Positions 7,069 through 49,378 of a stretch of 64,000 nt of DNA are shown here, piece after piece (position 1 is the stretch's first letter; every line of letters begins with the position of its first letter). Below the pieces are notes generated by a model. That model did not search any database. It saw only the letters and a list, made by a program, of their open reading frames with translations, and was not told the origin of the DNA. This stretch comes from Marivita lacus. GTDB taxonomy: Bacteria; Pseudomonadota; Alphaproteobacteria; Rhodobacterales; Rhodobacteraceae. A program made the translations under genes and the position numbers. The DNA lies in contig NZ_BMFC01000011.1 in NCBI RefSeq assembly GCF_014637725.1, positions 1 through 64,000 of the forward strand. The letters run 5' to 3'.

Positions 7069-7860
7069 ATGACCCGTATCGACGCCAAATTCGCAGAGCT
7101 GCGCAAAGACGGCAAAAAGGCATTCGTGTCCTATGTCATGGCGGGTGATCCCGACTTCGACACCTCGCTCGAACTGGTCAAGGGCTTGCCGGGTGCAGGC
7201 GTGGACATCATCGAACTGGGCCTGCCCTTCACCGATCCGATGGCCGATGGCAGCACGATTCAGCTGGCCGGTCAGCGCGCGCTCGAAGGGGGCATGACGC
7301 TGGACCGCACGCTTGAGCTGACGCGCCGGTTCCGCGAAGAGGACGACACGACACCGATCGTGATGATGGGCTATTACAACCCGATCTACTCGCGCGGTGT
7401 CGACCTGTTCCTTTCGCAGGCCAAGGAAGCCGGCATCGACGGCCTGATCATCGTCGATCTTCCCCCCGAGGAAGACGACGAGCTGTGCATCCCGGCGCAG
7501 GCGGCGGGTCTGAACTTCATCCGGCTGGCCACACCCACCACCGATGACAAGCGCCTTCCCAAGGTGCTCCAGAACACCTCCGGTTTCGTCTATTACGTGT
7601 CGATCACCGGCATCACGGGTGCTGCCGAAGCGCAGGCCGCCGATGTCGGCCCCGAAGTGGCGCGGATCAAGTCGCAGACCGATCTGCCGGTGATCGTGGG
7701 CTTCGGCATCAGGACGCCCGACGCCTCGCAGGCCATCGCGGGAGTGGCGGATGGCTGTGTCGTCGGTTCGGCCATCGTGTCGGAACTCGCCATGGGCAAA
7801 CCGGTGAGCGACGTGCTGGCCTTCGTCAAGACGCTCGCGGACGGGGCGCACCGTGCGTGA
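7069..7860 (+). CDS. trpA: Tryptophan synthase alpha chain
   Basis: TrpA cleaves indole-3-glycerol phosphate to indole and glyceraldehyde-3-phosphate, and indole is channelled to TrpB. The 263-residue protein has the catalytic Glu49 ([10 protein letters not shown]) and Asp60 (DPMADG) at exactly the classical positions, plus the C-terminal phosphate-binding GFGI and GSAIV segments. The ATG at 7069 follows AGGAGAG and gives the normal length. It is not adjacent to trpB, which lies at 20974-22156 and is broken as sequenced. The following gene overlaps it by 8 nt. Confidence 0.95.
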
Positions 7861-19556: not shown

Positions 19557-19994
19557 TCAATCGTCATCATCGCCGCCATCGTCGTCGTCGCCACCACCAC
19601 CATCGTCACCATCGTCGCCACCATCGTCGTCGTCGTCGTCATCGTCGTCGTCCCGACCGCCCCTGTCATCATCGCGGTCGTCATCATCGTCATCTTCATC
19701 GGCACGATCCCTGCCGCGGTCGGTCCCGTCGTCGCGGTCGCGGTCGCGGTCGGATCGGTCGATGTAATCCCGCAGGATCGCCCCGGTCGAGGGATTGAGA
19801 ATGATCTCGCGGCGCCCGGCCGACCCGGTGGCGACGATCCGCGTCCGGCCCAGAAGCGTGCGCTGGAGCGTGATCTCGCGGTAGCCTTGCCGGCGCAGCT
19901 GGTTGACCACCTGGTCTTCGGCGGTCTGCGCAAGAACCGACCGTGGCACGAGGATGCCCGCCACCAAGCCTGCCAAGAGCTGTCTTCGTTTCAT
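19557..19994 (-). CDS. Secreted PepSY-like protein with Asp-rich tail (paralogue 1)
   Basis: The 145-residue protein has a signal peptide (1-22, ...PRSVLAQ), a PepSY-like module of about 50 residues (DQVVNQLRRQGYREI... ending NPSTGAILRDYID), and a tail from about 80 to the end made almost only of Asp, Arg and Gly. The tail has runs of up to ten Asp residues. It shares the same plan with the neighbour at 20059-20733. The start has a GGAGATCGGGA ribosome-binding site. A polyanionic secreted tail suggests Ca2+ or metal binding or a surface charge role; this is inference. Confidence 0.75.
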   Translation of the reverse strand: MKRRQLLAGLVAGILVPRSVLAQTAEDQVVNQLRRQGYREITLQRTLLGRTRIVATGSAGRREIILNPSTGAILRDYIDRSDRDRDRDDGTDRGRDRADEDDDDDDRDDDRGGRDDDDDDDDDDGGDDGDDGGGGDDDDGGDDDD

Positions 19995-20058: not shown

Positions 20059-20733
20059 TCAATCGTCGTCATCATCATCATCGTCGTCGCTGTCGTCGTC
20101 ATCGCTGTCGTCGTCGCCGTCGCTGTCGTCATCGTCGTTGTCATCATCATCGTCGTCATCGCGGTCAGCATCCCGATCATCATCCCGCCCATCGTCGCGG
20201 TCATCGTCGCGGTCGTCGTCCCGGTCATCATCGCGATCGTCGTCCCGGTCATCATCGCGGTCGTCATCCCGATCATCATTCCGGTCGTCATCCCGGTCAT
20301 CATCGCGATCGTCATCGTCGTCACGATCATCGTCATTATCGCCTCGGCCACGCGCGTCATCATCCCGACCACGATCACCCCGCCCATTGCCACGGACGTC
20401 ATCGTCGTCGTCACGCAGATCATCAGAGCGCGCGATGTCGACGAAGTCACGGGCGCGGTTGCGGATCTCGACACCGGGGCGGGTGTCATCGTCCCCACGG
20501 ACGCGTTCGATCTCCTGCTTGAGAATATCGCCCGTGGCGCGGTCATAGACCACTTCGAGCTTTTGCGTGCCACGGATCGCCTCGACCTTGATCTGGCCAA
20601 GGCCATTGTCGATCTCGATGCGCTGAAACCCCTGGGCGGTCAGATCGCTGACGATCTGGTCGGTGGCTGATTGTGCAAGCGCCATGCTGCCGGTGAGCGT
20701 GGCGAAGAGCGCGGTCATCACTGTCTTTTTCAC
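20059..20733 (-). CDS. Secreted PepSY-like protein with long RDDD-repeat tail (paralogue 2)
   Basis: The 224-residue protein has a signal peptide (1-21, ...SMALAQ), a PepSY-like module (DQIVSDLTAQGFQRIEI... VVYDRATGDILKQEIE, about 25-76), a linker, then a tail from about 108 to 224 composed of Asp and Arg, with roughly 15 tandem RDDD tetrapeptides and a terminal run of Asp and Ser. GTG at 20733 follows AAAGGACGG. It is the first gene of the unit with paralogue 1 (64-bp gap) and the LuxR-type gene. Net charge of the tail is strongly negative. Confidence 0.78.
   Translation of the reverse strand: MKKTVMTALFATLTGSMALAQSATDQIVSDLTAQGFQRIEIDNGLGQIKVEAIRGTQKLEVVYDRATGDILKQEIERVRGDDDTRPGVEIRNRARDFVDIARSDDLRDDDDDVRGNGRGDRGRDDDARGRGDNDDDRDDDDDRDDDRDDDRNDDRDDDRDDDRDDDRDDDRDDDRDDDRDDGRDDDRDADRDDDDDDDNDDDDSDGDDDSDDDDSDDDDDDDDD
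20065..20365. repeat. Low-complexity GTC/ATC tract encoding RDDD repeats
   Basis: On the plus strand this stretch is almost wholly made of tcg, tca, tcc and cgg trinucleotides, with a 12-nt period around 20195-20330 that corresponds to the RDDD tetrapeptide. Both GAC and GAT codons are used, so the DNA repeat is less perfect than the protein repeat. A similar, shorter tract lies at 19560-19720. Copy number could vary by slippage. Confidence 0.85.
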
Positions 20734-20898: not shown

Positions 20899-20933
20899 AA
20901 AAGAAATCCCCCCGTGCCGTGCGGCACGAGGGG
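20899..20933 (-). terminator. Rho-independent terminator after trpB
   Basis: On the minus strand a GC-rich stem (about 20908-20918 paired with 20923-20933, one mismatch) with a four-base loop is followed by ATTTCTTTT. It begins 41 bp past the trpB stop and would end that transcript. Confidence 0.8.
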
Positions 20934-20973: not shown

Positions 20974-22156
20974 TCAGCCCATGTCGAATCCCAGGTGCTT
21001 GGCGACGGTAAAGATGTCCTTGTCGCCACGTCCGCACATGTTCATGCAGATGATGTGATCCTTGGGCAGCTCGGGCGCGATCTTCATCACATGGGCCAGC
21101 GCGTGGCTGGGTTCCAGCGCCGGGATGATGCCTTCGAGCGCACAGCTCAGCTGGAACGCCTCGAGCGCTTCCTTGTCGGTGATCGACACGTATTTCGCGC
21201 GACCGATGTCATGCAGCCAGGCGTGTTCCGGCCCGATGCCCGGATAGTCGAGCCCCGCCGAGATGCTGAACCCTTCGAGGATCTGGCCGTCGTCATCCTG
21301 CAACAGATAGGTGCGGTTGCCATGCAGCACGCCGGGCCTGCCGCCGGTGAGCGAGGCGCAATGCTCCATCTTCTCGTTCACACCCTTGCCGCCCGCTTCG
21401 ACGCCAATGATGTTCACCTCCTTGTCGTCGAGGAACGGGTAGAACAGACCCATCGCGTTCGATCCGCCCCCGATGGCCGCGATCAGCGTGTCGGGCAAGC
21501 GGCCCTCGGCCTCGTGCATCTGCTCGCGGACTTCCTTGCCGATGATCGACTGGAAATCGCGGACCATCGCCGGATAGGGGTGCGGACCGGCCACGGTGCC
21601 GATGCAGTAGAACGTGTCGCGCACATTGGTCACCCAGTCGCGCAGCGCGTCGTTCATCGCGTCCTTGAGCGTCCCGCGACCGGATGTGACCGGGATCACC
21701 TCGGCGCCCAGAAGGCGCATGCGGAAGACGTTGGGCTGCTGCCGTTCGACGTCATGCGCGCCCATGTAGACGATGCATTTCAGCCCGAACTTGGCGCAGA
21801 CGGTGGCGGTGGCGGGTCTTGCCCATGCGGCGGGCCAGGATGATCTGGCCCAGCACGTTGTTGATCTTGTGCGCGCCGGTGTGGTTCAGCTCGTCGCGCT
21901 TCATGTAGACCTTGGCACCGCCCAGATGGTCGGTCAGGCGTTCGGCGTGATAGAGCGGCGACGGGCGGCCCACGTAATGCTTCCAGAGGAAGTCCATCTC
22001 GGACCAGAAACTGTCGTCCGTCTTGGCGCGCTCGTACTGCTCTTCAAGTTCGAGAATGAGCGGCATCAGGGTTTCCGAGACGAACCGTCCCCCGAAGATG
22101 CCGAAGCGGCCCTTTTCATCGGGACCGGTCATGAAACTGTTGAATAGATCATTCAT
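20974..22156 (-). pseudogene. trpB: Tryptophan synthase beta chain, broken by an internal deletion
   Basis: Two reading frames together cover TrpB. Codons from ATG 22156 to about 21812 encode the N-terminal part, including the PLP-binding lysine in HTGAHKINN. Codons from about 21811 to 20974 encode the rest, including the phosphate-binding GGGSNAMG. At the 21811/21812 junction the sequence passes from GKTR straight to the ATVCAKFG region in another frame. The family-typical stretch IIAETGAGQHGV is absent, implying loss of about 38 bp (not a multiple of three). That stretch holds the catalytic Glu and the GAGQHG carboxylate-binding loop. As sequenced no active TrpB can be made. A sequencing or assembly error is possible; trpA (7069-7860) is intact. 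Confidence 0.85.
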
Positions 22157-24500: not shown

Positions 24501-24621
24501 GGTCCGTCCTTGAATGTTGCGCCCGGTTTACGCCCCTTCGCGCCGGGAAACCAGCCATGTGATGACCCGGTTGCCCTGCAGGCTGTGCGCTTTTATGGTC
24601 GCGCAGCGAGAGGGTGGTGCA

Positions 24622-24993
24622 ATGACCGACCAGCGTCTGAGTTTCAAGGAGATGTGTGCGAAGTTCGATGTGACTCCGCGCACGCTCAGGTATTACGAAT
24701 ACATCGAACTGTTGCAGCCCGAACGCGATGGACGATCGCGTTGGTACCGCCCGAAAGAGGTCGCGCGGATGACCCTGATCCTGCGCGGACGCAAGTTCGG
24801 CTTTCAGCTCGAAGACATCCGACAATGGCTGCTGATCTACGAACAGGACGGCACGGATGCGCAGATGCGGGCCTGGATCGACCTTGCCGACCGCCAGCTG
24901 GCAGAGCTTGACGAACAGCGCAGCCAGCTTGACGAGGCGATCGAGGAATTGCAGAAGCTGCGCGACGACACGGCCACGATCCTGAACGACTGA
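24622..24993 (+). CDS. MerR-family regulator (first of two)
   Basis: The 123-residue protein has an N-terminal MerR helix-turn-helix ([35 protein letters not shown], about 8-43) and a C-terminal coiled coil (about 80-115), with no Cys-rich metal site, unlike metal-sensing MerR members. ATG 24622 follows AGGGTGG. It resembles the second MerR protein at 25285-25689 along its whole length, so the two are tandem paralogues. It could respond to an acyl-CoA like LiuR-type regulators; this is inferred from the acyl-CoA dehydrogenase genes that follow. Confidence 0.85.
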   Translation: MTDQRLSFKEMCAKFDVTPRTLRYYEYIELLQPERDGRSRWYRPKEVARMTLILRGRKFGFQLEDIRQWLLIYEQDGTDAQMRAWIDLADRQLAELDEQRSQLDEAIEELQKLRDDTATILND

Positions 24994-25212: not shown

Positions 25213-25284
25213 ATTCCCATTGTAAGACGGCATCAGCCTTCGCATGTCGATGCCATGACCGGCAGCGAAACAAGGACGACGACA

Positions 25285-25689
25285 ATGACTGACGACCGCA
25301 CCATGACCATCAGGGAGATGTGTGACACCTATGATGTCACACCGCGCACGCTGCGGTTCTATGAAGCCAAGGAACTGCTCTTTCCGATCCGCGAAGGCCA
25401 GAAGCGACTGTTCACGAAGCGCGACCGCGCGCGCCTCAAGCTGATCCTGCGTGGCAAGCGCTTTGGCTTCAGCCTCGAAGAGATTCGGCAGCTTCTGGAC
25501 CTCTATCACATGGGTGACCAGCAGCAGACACAGCTGGCCCGGACCTATGAAATCGCCCAGCAGCGCCTGACTGACATGGAAACGCAACGCGACGAGCTTA
25601 ATCAGGCGATTGATGAACTCAAGGAACAGATGCGTTGGGGCGAGAAGATGCTTGCCTCGATGGATCAAAGCAAACGCGCGGCTGAATAG
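25285..25689 (+). CDS. MerR-family regulator (second of two), probable head of acyl-CoA oxidation operon
   Basis: The 134-residue protein has the MerR DNA-binding domain ([26 protein letters not shown], about 8-33) and a helical dimerisation region (about 75-120) without metal-binding Cys. ATG 25285 follows AAGGA and aligns with the start of the other MerR paralogue; an upstream ATG at 25255 has no clear ribosome-binding site. The acyl-CoA dehydrogenase gene follows after 29 bp, so it heads that operon. The twin palindromes at 25166-25212 suggest autoregulation. Confidence 0.87.
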
Positions 25690-34272: not shown

Positions 34273-34977
34273 TCAGGCGTCAAACCGATAGCCGAACTGC
34301 GCAATATCTTCGGCGCACATATCGGCCACGGCTGCGGCGGTGCGGTCGTCATAGGCGGCGCGGTACTCCTTTGGACGGTCCGATGCATTGGCGTGCGGGA
34401 TCTCCAGCCGAAAGCCGAGGTGCTGTTCCACCGGGGCCAGATCCTCGGTCAGATGTTCAAGCCGCACAAACGCCGAGGCGCGATTGATCCCCGCCGCGTC
34501 GGTGACATAGCGCGCATAGGGAAAGGCGCGCAGGCTGGCGTTGGTGTCGGGGTGCAACACGAAGCCGTCAAAGGGCTGGGCCTTGGCCAGCGTCACCGCC
34601 GGATGGTCAAAGCCCTGCGCGCGCAGCCAGTGGTAATAGCTGACCATCCGGTCCCAAGGGTTGCGCACCAGCGTGAAGACGAACATCCGCCTCAATTCAT
34701 CGGGTGACAGCGCCCCGTCGAGATCGGCCAGCGTGCTGTGTTTCCAAAGTCGCCCCTTGGCACCCAACGTCTTGACCCGCCCCTTGCGCCGAAGCGCCTT
34801 GGGCGTGTCCCCGATCAGGATGTCGTCCCGATGCGCGCGGTCCTCCAGCGCCAGCGCCAGCGACGTGCCCCCCGTCTTGGGGATGTGCACGAAGATGAAG
34901 TTCCGGGCGCGCGACAGGATCATGTGCCAGAGGTGCCACCGTCCCCGGTCCGAGGCAAGGATTTGCTTTTCCTGCAC
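34273..34977 (-). CDS. Sulfotransferase family 2 protein
   Basis: The 234-residue protein has both PAPS-binding motifs of sulfotransferases: the 5'-phosphosulfate loop HIPKTGGTS (about 31-39) and the 3'-phosphate motif VRNPWDRMVSYYHWLRAQ (about 103-120). It transfers sulfate from PAPS to an unknown acceptor such as a sugar or lipid. GTG 34977 has a GGAGACGTC ribosome-binding site; the start at ATG 34923 (MILSRARNFIFVHIPKTGG) matches the form I recall in relatives and would remove 18 residues. It is divergent from the acyl-CoA ligase gene. Confidence 0.82.
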   Translation of the reverse strand: MQEKQILASDRGRWHLWHMILSRARNFIFVHIPKTGGTSLALALEDRAHRDDILIGDTPKALRRKGRVKTLGAKGRLWKHSTLADLDGALSPDELRRMFVFTLVRNPWDRMVSYYHWLRAQGFDHPAVTLAKAQPFDGFVLHPDTNASLRAFPYARYVTDAAGINRASAFVRLEHLTEDLAPVEQHLGFRLEIPHANASDRPKEYRAAYDDRTAAAVADMCAEDIAQFGYRFDA

Positions 34978-35028
34978 GACGTCTCCGGGCTATGTCATAG
35001 GACGTTTCTGTATCGGGAAGGATGCGCC

Positions 35029-36657
35029 ATGGGCTGGATGCGGGATGAAAGCGGGCTGGACAAGCGCGCGGCGAATTATGTGCCTTTGACGCCACTGTCG
35101 CATCTGCAACGCGCGGCGCAGGTGTTTCCCGACACGCTGGCCGTGGTGCACGGGCAACACCGCAAAACCTATCGCGACTACCACGACCGCGTGACGCGGC
35201 TGGCCTCTGCGCTGGGTTCGATGGGCGTGCAACCCGGCGATGTGGTGGCGACGATCCTGCCCAACATTCCCGCGCAGGCCGAGGCGCATTTTGGCGTGCC
35301 CGCCTGTGGTGCGGTTCTGAACACGATCAACACGCGACTCGATGTGGATACCATCTCCTATATCCTCGATCACGGCGAGGCGAAGGTGGTGCTGTGCGAC
35401 CCGCAATTCCTGCCGGTGCTGGCCGAGGCGATGGAGCAGATGGAGGGGCCAGCCCCGAAGGTGATCGAAGTGGCCGATCCGCAAAGCGGCGTGAACGCGT
35501 CCAGCGATTATCCCGAGTACGAGGATGTTCTTGCCGCCGCCGACCCGGAGTTCGCGTGGATCCTGCCCGAGGATGAGTGGGAGAGCCTCGCGCTCAATTA
35601 CACGTCCGGCACAACCGGGCGGCCCAAGGGGGTCGTCTACCACCATCGCGGAGCGTATCTCATGACGATGGGCACGGCGGTCAGTTGGGAAATGGCGCTG
35701 CGGCCGAAATACCTCACCATCGTGCCGTTGTTCCATTGCAACGGTTGGAACCACACGTGGATGATGCCGCTTCTGGGCGGCACTGTCGTGTGTTGCCGCG
35801 ATATCTCTGCCCGCGCGATCTACAATGCCATTGCCGATGAGGGCGTGACCCATTTCGGCGGGGCGCCCATCGTGCTGAACATGATCGTCAATTCCGATCC
35901 GAGCGAACGGCGCGATTTTGACCATCCGGTCAAGGTCTACACCGCAGGCGCGCCCCCTGCCCCCGCGACGCTGGCCAAGATCGGCGATCTGGGGTTCCAT
36001 GTGATGCAGGTCTACGGGCTGACCGAAACCTATGGCCATGTCACCGAATGTCTCTGGAACGCCGACGCATGGGACGGGCTGGCGCAGGATGCCAAGTCCG
36101 CCATCAAGGCGCGGCAGGGCGTGGCCTTTCCGATGATGGAAAAGATCGACGTGGTGGATGACACGGGCACACCCGTGCCACGCGATGGCACAACGCAGGG
36201 CGAGATCGTCATTCGCGGCAATGCGGTGATGAAGGGCTACCTGAAGAACCCCAAGGCGACCGATGAGGCGTTTGCTGGCGGGCATTTCCATTCCGGCGAC
36301 ATCGCGGTGATGCACCCCGACAATTACTGCCAGATCGCCGACCGCGCCAAGGACATCATCATCTCGGGCGGCGAGAACATTTCCTCGGTCGAGGTCGAAG
36401 GCTGCCTGATGGCGCATGACGCGGTGCTGCTGTGTGCCGTGGTGGCCAAGCCGGACGACACATGGGGCGAAGTGCCCTGCGCCTTTGTCGAGTTGAAGGG
36501 CAATCACAGCGCCACCGAGGAAGAGCTGATCGCCTTCGCCCGGTCGCGGCTGGCCGGGTTCAAGACACCCAAGAAGGTGGTGTTCGAGGAATTGCCCAAG
36601 ACCTCGACCGGGAAGATCCAGAAGTTCCAGCTGCGCGAGAGGGCCAAGGCGCTGTAG
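35029..36657 (+). CDS. Acyl-CoA synthetase/AMP-binding ligase (DmdB/FadD-like)
   Basis: The 542-residue enzyme activates a carboxylic acid with ATP and CoA. The P-loop-like motif YTSGTTGRPKGVVYHHRGAY is at about 188-207, the A5/A8-type motifs MQVYGLTETYGHV (about 326-338) and HSGDIAVMHPD, GRAKDIIISGGENISSVEVE-like (here DRAKDIIISGGENISS, about 440-455), and the C-terminal catalytic lysine in PKTSTGKIQKFQLRE (about 524-538). ATG 35029 follows AAGGA. It resembles the medium/short-chain and methylmercaptopropionate ligase group; it could feed the dehydrogenases nearby, but substrate is open. Confidence 0.87.
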   Translation: MGWMRDESGLDKRAANYVPLTPLSHLQRAAQVFPDTLAVVHGQHRKTYRDYHDRVTRLASALGSMGVQPGDVVATILPNIPAQAEAHFGVPACGAVLNTINTRLDVDTISYILDHGEAKVVLCDPQFLPVLAEAMEQMEGPAPKVIEVADPQSGVNASSDYPEYEDVLAAADPEFAWILPEDEWESLALNYTSGTTGRPKGVVYHHRGAYLMTMGTAVSWEMALRPKYLTIVPLFHCNGWNHTWMMPLLGGTVVCCRDISARAIYNAIADEGVTHFGGAPIVLNMIVNSDPSERRDFDHPVKVYTAGAPPAPATLAKIGDLGFHVMQVYGLTETYGHVTECLWNADAWDGLAQDAKSAIKARQGVAFPMMEKIDVVDDTGTPVPRDGTTQGEIVIRGNAVMKGYLKNPKATDEAFAGGHFHSGDIAVMHPDNYCQIADRAKDIIISGGENISSVEVEGCLMAHDAVLLCAVVAKPDDTWGEVPCAFVELKGNHSATEEELIAFARSRLAGFKTPKKVVFEELPKTSTGKIQKFQLRERAKAL

Positions 36658-36775
36658 GTCGGCTGCAGAGGTGTGGGCGTGCACTTAAGAGTGTACCGCG
36701 TATGCCGCTGCCGCATTGCGCGAAACATCCTACGGGTGTACCCTTCCCTCCAATCAACGAGGCAGAGCAGCCCGC

Positions 36776-37801
36776 ATGACCGCGCTGAAGGAATTTCAAC
36801 GGCTGGAGGCCGAGGGCGTCTGGCGCGCGACGCCCGCGGACCAGCGCAAGGACGTGATCGTGTCCTTGGGCGATGCATCGCTGACGATCCTCGATCTGCG
36901 GGAAAACGTGCTGGCGCATTGGTCGGTGGCCGCCGTGGCCCGCGCGAACAAGGGCCAGTTGCCCGCCATCTACCATCCTGACGGCGATCCGGGCGAAACG
37001 CTTGAATTCGGCGAAGACAGCGCGCAGATGATCGATGCGATAGAGCGCATTCGCTCCGCCATCGACAGGACCCGCCCGAAACCCGGCAAGCTGCGGTTCT
37101 GGATCACCGGGCTGATCGCGGCATCGGTGATCGGCGGCATCCTGTTCTGGCTGCCCGATGCGCTGCTCCGGCACACGGTTCATGTGGTGCCTGCCGTCAA
37201 GCGGGTCGAGATCGGCGATGCTCTTCTGGCGCGGATCACGCGGATCTCCGGGCAGGCCTGCATGACGCGCGATGCCCGTGAACCGCTGCGGCGACTGGCC
37301 TCCCGGGTGCTGGGACCGGCACAGCGCGGCGCGCTGGTGGTGCTGCCGGGCGGCGTGGCCGAGACCGCGCATTTGCCCGGCGGGCGCATCCTGTTGAACC
37401 GGGCGCTGGTCGAAGACCCCGAAGAGCCGGATGTGACGGCGGGATACGTTCTGATCGAACGGCTGCGCGCGCTGACTCAGGACCCGCTTGAGGAAATGCT
37501 GATCCAGACCGGGCTGTGGTCGAGCCTGCGCCTTTTGACCACCGGCGAGATGGCGGACAAGGATCTGGACCGCTACAGCGAATACCTGCTGTCGCGGGAC
37601 CCCGTGGAGTTGTCGAATGACGTGATCATCGCGGGGTTCGAGATGGCGAACCTGCGCACCACGCCCTATGCCTATGCGGTTGATATCACGGGGGAATCTA
37701 CCCTGCCCCTGATCGAGGCCGACCCGATGGCGGGACGTGATCAGCGCCCGGTGCTGAGCGATGCGGACTGGCTGCGCCTGCAGGGCATCTGCGGCGAGTG
37801 A
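36776..37801 (+). CDS. Single-pass membrane protein of unknown function
   Basis: The 341-residue protein has an N-terminal cytoplasmic part (about 1-102, with VSLGDASLTILDLRENVLAHWSV), one membrane helix (about 105-127, FWITGLIAASVIGGILFWL), and a large periplasmic part. The latter contains LARITRISGQACMTRDAREPLRRL and GGVAETAHLPGGRILLNRAL, followed by TAGYVLIERLR. The spacing recalls the beginning of M48-like proteases but I see no HExxH motif, so no enzyme is claimed. Seen in relatives as a conserved hypothetical. ATG 36776 chosen; an upstream start at 36716 lacks support. Confidence 0.7.
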   Translation: MTALKEFQRLEAEGVWRATPADQRKDVIVSLGDASLTILDLRENVLAHWSVAAVARANKGQLPAIYHPDGDPGETLEFGEDSAQMIDAIERIRSAIDRTRPKPGKLRFWITGLIAASVIGGILFWLPDALLRHTVHVVPAVKRVEIGDALLARITRISGQACMTRDAREPLRRLASRVLGPAQRGALVVLPGGVAETAHLPGGRILLNRALVEDPEEPDVTAGYVLIERLRALTQDPLEEMLIQTGLWSSLRLLTTGEMADKDLDRYSEYLLSRDPVELSNDVIIAGFEMANLRTTPYAYAVDITGESTLPLIEADPMAGRDQRPVLSDADWLRLQGICGE

Positions 37802-49003: not shown

Positions 49004-49378
49004 TCAGACCAGCCCGCGCCACCGCAGAACAACGATCAGCAGGGTCATCGCCGCAAGCAGGTTGAACGCCATGCTGCCCAGCACCGACAATGCGATGCCC
49101 TTGCGGCGGTCCATCACGTCGATCGCCTTGAGATGGGTGGCCGCGCGGTCATAGGCGCTTTTGGTGGCGTTGGGATCAAGGCGCATCGCCAGCTTGGGAT
49201 TGCGCGACATCTTTTCCGCCTCGGCGACGATGCCGATATCCCGAAGCACACCTGACGGCAAACGACGACCGGCCTTCGCGACGCGGCGCGACAGCGACCC
49301 GCGCTTGAGACCCAGCCGCTTTGCCATCAGGGTCCGCAACGCATCGGCGTTGGACTTGATCATCTTTACATGTTCCAT
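49004..49378 (-). CDS. Small basic protein with C-terminal membrane helix
   Basis: The 124-residue protein is strongly basic in its first 50 residues (KRLGLKRGSLSRRVAKAGRRLP), has a helical middle, and ends with a hydrophobic helix (about 97-119, IALSVLGSMAFNLLAAMTLLIVVL). It could be a tail-anchored protein. I do not recognise the family. It is divergent from the esterase gene (63-bp gap) and downstream of nothing on its strand within 400 bp. Conserved in relatives as far as I recall, so it is probably real. Confidence 0.65.
   Translation of the reverse strand: MEHVKMIKSNADALRTLMAKRLGLKRGSLSRRVAKAGRRLPSGVLRDIGIVAEAEKMSRNPKLAMRLDPNATKSAYDRAATHLKAIDVMDRRKGIALSVLGSMAFNLLAAMTLLIVVLRWRGLV

Follow-up and report, generated by a model that had tools for sequence, protein, structure and literature searches.

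The tryptophan synthase beta subunit gene (trpB) carried by Marivita lacus on contig NZ_BMFC01000011.1 is interrupted at the active site, and the question raised by this locus is whether the interruption is a genuine loss of function, which would leave the strain dependent on external tryptophan, or an error in the assembled sequence. The window denotes here the whole stretch of DNA that was analysed, 64,000 nucleotides from the start of that contig. A preliminary description made from these letters alone had proposed that about 38 bp encoding the catalytic glutamate and the carboxylate-binding loop are missing from trpB and that the gene is frameshifted. Both proposals are borne out. The TIGR00263 profile matches trpB in two frames, one of which holds positions 1-100 of the profile (21812-22111) and the other positions 113-384 (20995-21813); the 12 profile positions between the two matching pieces are absent. 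A DNA match to trpB was obtained in 35 of the 40 relatives searched, the five without a match all lying outside the family, and 29 of the 35, including all 16 other same-genus genomes analysed, were aligned. Relative to these 29 sequences, trpB has sustained a single clean deletion of 38 bp, equivalent to 12 codons plus two bases, which shifts the reading frame; the matching stretch measures 1217-1221 bp in each of the 16 same-genus relatives and 1183 bp in the window. The junction had been placed at 21811/21812, which is right within the ambiguity of bases 21813-21812 (GC), either of whose flanks can claim them. The features discussed below are collected in Table 1.

Table 1. Positions of the trpB lesion, its reading frames and associated features in the window.
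Feature	Position	Strand	Remarks
trpB (tryptophan synthase beta subunit) pseudogene	20974..22156	-	1183 bp
Deletion junction in trpB	21811..21814	-	last base of 'ACCC' is 21814, followed by 21811
Frameshifted 5' ORF of trpB	21752..22156	-	134 aa; ATG at 22156
3' ORF of trpB	20974..21765	-	263 aa; remainder of TrpB in frame
7-bp hairpin in trpB coding sequence	21832..21851	-	arms 21832-21838 and 21845-21851
Terminator-like hairpin just 3' of trpB	20908..20933	-	consensus match only; shuffles yield 0.8 such sites on average
trpA	7069..7860	+	open, 263 aa

The deletion divides trpB into two overlapping open reading frames. After about 115 TrpB residues, the 5' ORF continues out of frame for about 19 residues to a stop codon that ends at 21752, and the ATG of the 3' ORF (21765) lies within its end, giving an overlap of 14 bp. 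Scored against TIGR00263, the 3' part alone reaches 461 bits (cut-off 392) and the 5' part 139 bits, and no single open frame of trpB contains a full-length match above the cut-off. The break corresponds to residues 115-128 of the 406 in a relative's ORF, and amino-acid identity to the closest relative is 96-97% on both sides of it. Elsewhere in the window, two adjacent minus-strand ORFs of 145 and 224 aa (19557-19994 and 20059-20733) possess long Asp/Arg-rich low-complexity C-terminal tails and match nothing in NCBIfam at E-values up to 0.001, and tandem MerR-type regulators (24514-24993 and 25255-25689, both on the plus strand) are located upstream of acyl-CoA dehydrogenase-like and thiolase genes.

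The position of the break within the protein bears directly on function. As in TrpB1 enzymes, the 5' ORF retains the PLP-lysine motif HTGAHK. Alignment with the Salmonella chains, with the offset applied to the customary residue numbering, suggests that this lysine is beta-Lys87 and that the deleted residues are about 106-117. The codons for catalytic Glu109 and for the carboxylate-binding loop 109-114, which a TrpB1 enzyme also possesses, are absent from the gene. According to PMC9512447, beta-Glu109 stabilises the attack of indole and residues 109-114 form the carboxylate-binding loop. A TrpB protein that has lost both this glutamate and the loop should be inactive. Programmed frameshifting at trpB is ruled out, as a change of frame cannot restore absent residues. 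A six-frame translation of the window contains the peptide GAGQHG once, by chance, at 49068-49085 in a frame closely bounded by stops.

The two fragments might nevertheless be supposed to act jointly as a split, loop-less TrpB, or to be retained in a non-catalytic partnership with TrpA. The overlap between the ATG of the 3' ORF and the end of the 5' ORF would permit coupled re-initiation, and both halves are still conserved, but the youth of the lesion explains that conservation equally well. Complementation between the fragments is unlikely because both pieces lack the active-site loop and the catalytic glutamate, which 29 of 29 relatives retain, and we regard this arrangement as scarcely credible.

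Comparison with close relatives establishes how unusual the lesion is. The motif AETGAGQHG is found in all 29 aligned relatives, and a full-length trpB is present in each of the 16 other same-genus genomes, making the broken gene unique within the genus. One of these genomes contains two full-length copies (G002:C64 and G002:C74), the second of which may be foreign because the genome is rated 4% contaminated. A scan of genome_contigs confirmed at least 584 trpB loci, of which 80 were kept, and the loop lies in an open frame in all 80; the exact 31-base junction pattern has no match in genome_contigs, a collection that may omit records of this or near genomes. At the level of the family, trpB was matched in 389 of 394 genomes with an E-value of 1e-25 or lower. 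Twenty-one were rechecked, comprising all 16 others with a best E-value weaker than 1e-189, which were picked by eye, and the five without a match; the full length of the remaining family genes is judged by E-value. In the rechecked set, trpB is full-length but divergent in G051 and G179, and looks split within one contig in G054:C262, G151:C5 and G305:C2, whose genomes are 73-85% complete. The other matches are partial, some of them starting at bases 1-3 of a contig. Among the matches listed, family genomes at least 90% complete hold no other two-frame trpB on one contig. Five family genomes remained without a trpB match when E-values up to 1e-10 were admitted, among them G192 (96% complete) and G109 (100% complete, in about 20 contigs), the latter possibly a natural tryptophan auxotroph or the user of another enzyme.

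It had been suggested at the outset that the strain would be a tryptophan auxotroph unless another trpB exists elsewhere, and this is the natural prediction from the sequence, no other trpB having been found in the assembly (4.77 Mb in 65 contigs). In a search of all 65 contigs, TIGR00263 returned the two pieces of trpB, no second trpB, and four weak matches to paralogues, none scoring more than 25.5 bits. The trpB2 model (TIGR01415) found nothing above its cut-off genome-wide, its best match, at 81 bits against 519, being the broken trpB itself. With up to one mismatch allowed, a degenerate pattern for the loop likewise found no stray copy on any of the 65 contigs. Eight other open genes do exceed the PALP cut-off, and an unrecognised enzyme might in principle substitute for TrpB and keep the strain prototrophic despite the deletion. 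The best matches of these eight genes, however, are to other families: five exceed the cut-off for BhcB, IlvA, CuyA, ThrC or a cysteine synthase A model, a sixth passes a model for a serine/threonine dehydratase subfamily, and the best matches of the last two, to dehydratase or ammonia-lyase models, stay below cut-off. None of the eight passes TIGR00263 or TIGR01415, and a substitution of this kind appears very improbable. Two further weak PALP matches fall below the cut-off.

The remaining alternative is that the break arose as a local artefact of the assembly or of the library, such as a consensus error, a polymerase jump or a chimera, and that trpB is intact in the living strain. The preliminary description had judged this quite possible. 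The undecayed state of the gene still speaks for it, the lesion standing alone amid an otherwise well-kept gene and pathway, as do the uniqueness of the broken trpB in the genus and a hairpin that adjoins the junction. The family's three other one-contig split genes also occur in genomes of a completeness at which assembly error is common. The case is nonetheless weaker than had been stated in regard to structure, to the shortness of the microhomology and to the standing of trpB as the sole break on its contig. Homopolymer errors and k-mer collapse do not usually leave a loss of 38 bp with 2 bp of sequence shared at its ends, the missing piece is absent from every other contig, and the contig contains no other clear interior frame change. 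An artefact is, in our estimation, unlikely, although it carries more than token weight.

The statement about the contig derives from a survey in which conserved frames from relatives were placed on the whole 133-kb contig and filtered by codon position, using 92 frames (81,225 bp) from G014, 99 frames (87,225 bp) from G007 and 47 frames (46,188 bp) from G011. Of the frames surveyed, trpB alone was clearly broken in its interior with conserved sequence to either side. Flags were also raised for eight further frames: two from G014 for stops, one from G007 for stops and for matches in two frames, and five from G011 for stops, one of these also in two frames. In all eight, the stop or frame change comes no later than residue 65 of the relative's ORF, as would fit an ORF called from an over-long upstream start. 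Reverse-direction controls placed 1 of 100 frames (G007) and 2 of 95 (G014) in two frames, with stops in 5 and 3, respectively, and the corresponding figures for four between-relative controls were 1 of 45, 0 of 58, 0 of 45 and 0 of 46, with stops in 2, 1, 1 and 0. Because the controls flag frames at a like rate, single flags are the background of the method, and trpB is distinguished by its pattern and not by a count. The candidates of a first raw survey were mostly shadow frames. An apparent break in a 1018-aa ORF at 35023-37372 was also rejected; this ORF runs antisense to a longer plus-strand ORF (34738-36657) and to the one beside it, and the tested piece had no family hit.

The ends of the deletion offer some indication of how it arose. 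Two CGC triplets flanking the gap had been proposed as the microhomology involved, a proposal that is only partly right. The run shared at the deletion ends is 2 bp in eight of the 16 same-genus relatives, the closest relative included, 3 bp in six (CGC in three of these) and 0 in two. The idea of a structured loop also holds only in part. When 101-nt stretches centred on the loop were folded for four relatives, the z scores against shuffles were -0.13, -0.82, 0.14 and -1.87; the deleted stretch is not reliably structured, and its hairpin-driven loss is unsupported by these folds. What does stand is a hairpin of 7 bp on the 5' side, separated from the junction by about 18 bp. It makes the neighbouring 5'-side stretch of the closest relative fold well (z = -3.11, with 1 of 200 shuffles as good), and an 81-nt stretch of the window spanning both hairpin and junction gave z = -1.34. 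This hairpin could have aided either in vivo slippage or a library error. If the event took place in the cell, it was probably one 38-bp deletion generated by replication slippage or end-joining across the 2-bp (GC) microhomology.

The remainder of the pathway appears undisturbed. The genes trpE, trpG, trpD, trpC, trpF and trpA are all open, in keeping with the earlier view that trpA is intact. trpA and trpB lie on opposite strands some 13 kb apart and do not form one operon; trpF is located further along the same contig, and other contigs carry trpCDG and trpE. What is left of the trpB coding sequence is free of relaxation or decay. It has accumulated private changes at 2 amino acids and 8 silent codons, as compared with 35 and 205 in the other 16 genus loci pooled, figures that are counts of private states and not a formal dN/dS. 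Since the rest of trpB and of the pathway is undecayed, the lesion is either very young or an artefact, and the uniqueness in the genus together with the undecayed sequence fits the two equally.

Taking this evidence together, we consider it likely that the deletion is real and that trpB has lost its function. An intact orthologue in the relatives, a disabling lesion here and a search that found no second copy are what is expected of a pseudogene, and the best reading is that trpB is a recent, strain-specific and ordinary pseudogene of a well-known enzyme, not a new system. On this reading, the only trpB found in the genome would have been destroyed and a functional beta subunit would not be made. 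Re-initiation at the overlapping ATG would yield at most two fragments, both devoid of the catalytic glutamate and the carboxylate-binding loop, and TrpA would at best release indole that is left unconverted. Because the loop is missing, the frame is broken and another trpB was not found, the strain is probably a tryptophan auxotroph, a prediction that holds unless the deletion is an assembly error. The loss would be very recent, and may have been tolerated in rich medium or beside a partner that supplies tryptophan. We find it rather doubtful that the deletion is fixed in nature and that the bacterium has become newly partner-dependent for tryptophan, having taken a first step towards auxotrophy with the rest of its pathway intact and unused indole available for release. 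The genus Marivita is often reported with microalgae, and the abstract openings retrieved in a literature search do not mention a tryptophan auxotroph in this genus.

If the strain does carry the deletion, it provides a clean and very young case of pathway loss through a single lesion. In that event, tryptophan prototrophy would be wrongly called by genome-based models that rely on a trpB hit, because the 3' part alone passes the TIGR00263 cut-off. If the deletion is instead an artefact, the locus is a reminder that a lone active-site deletion should be verified before auxotrophy is called.

With respect to known systems, the gene resembles TrpB1 (TIGR00263) in its descent, its PLP-lysine motif and the sequence flanking the junction, and differs in the absence of 12 residues that include the catalytic glutamate and the loop, and in its broken reading frame. 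Strain-specific biosynthetic pseudogenes are exemplified by the trp genes lost in Chlamydia. As in such cases, one lesion affects one step of an amino-acid pathway, and auxotrophy is predicted. Unlike them, the pseudogene described here resides in a genome that is not reduced (4.77 Mb), in which the remaining pathway is open, and which belongs to a bacterium that, judging from its genus, is presumably free-living and marine.
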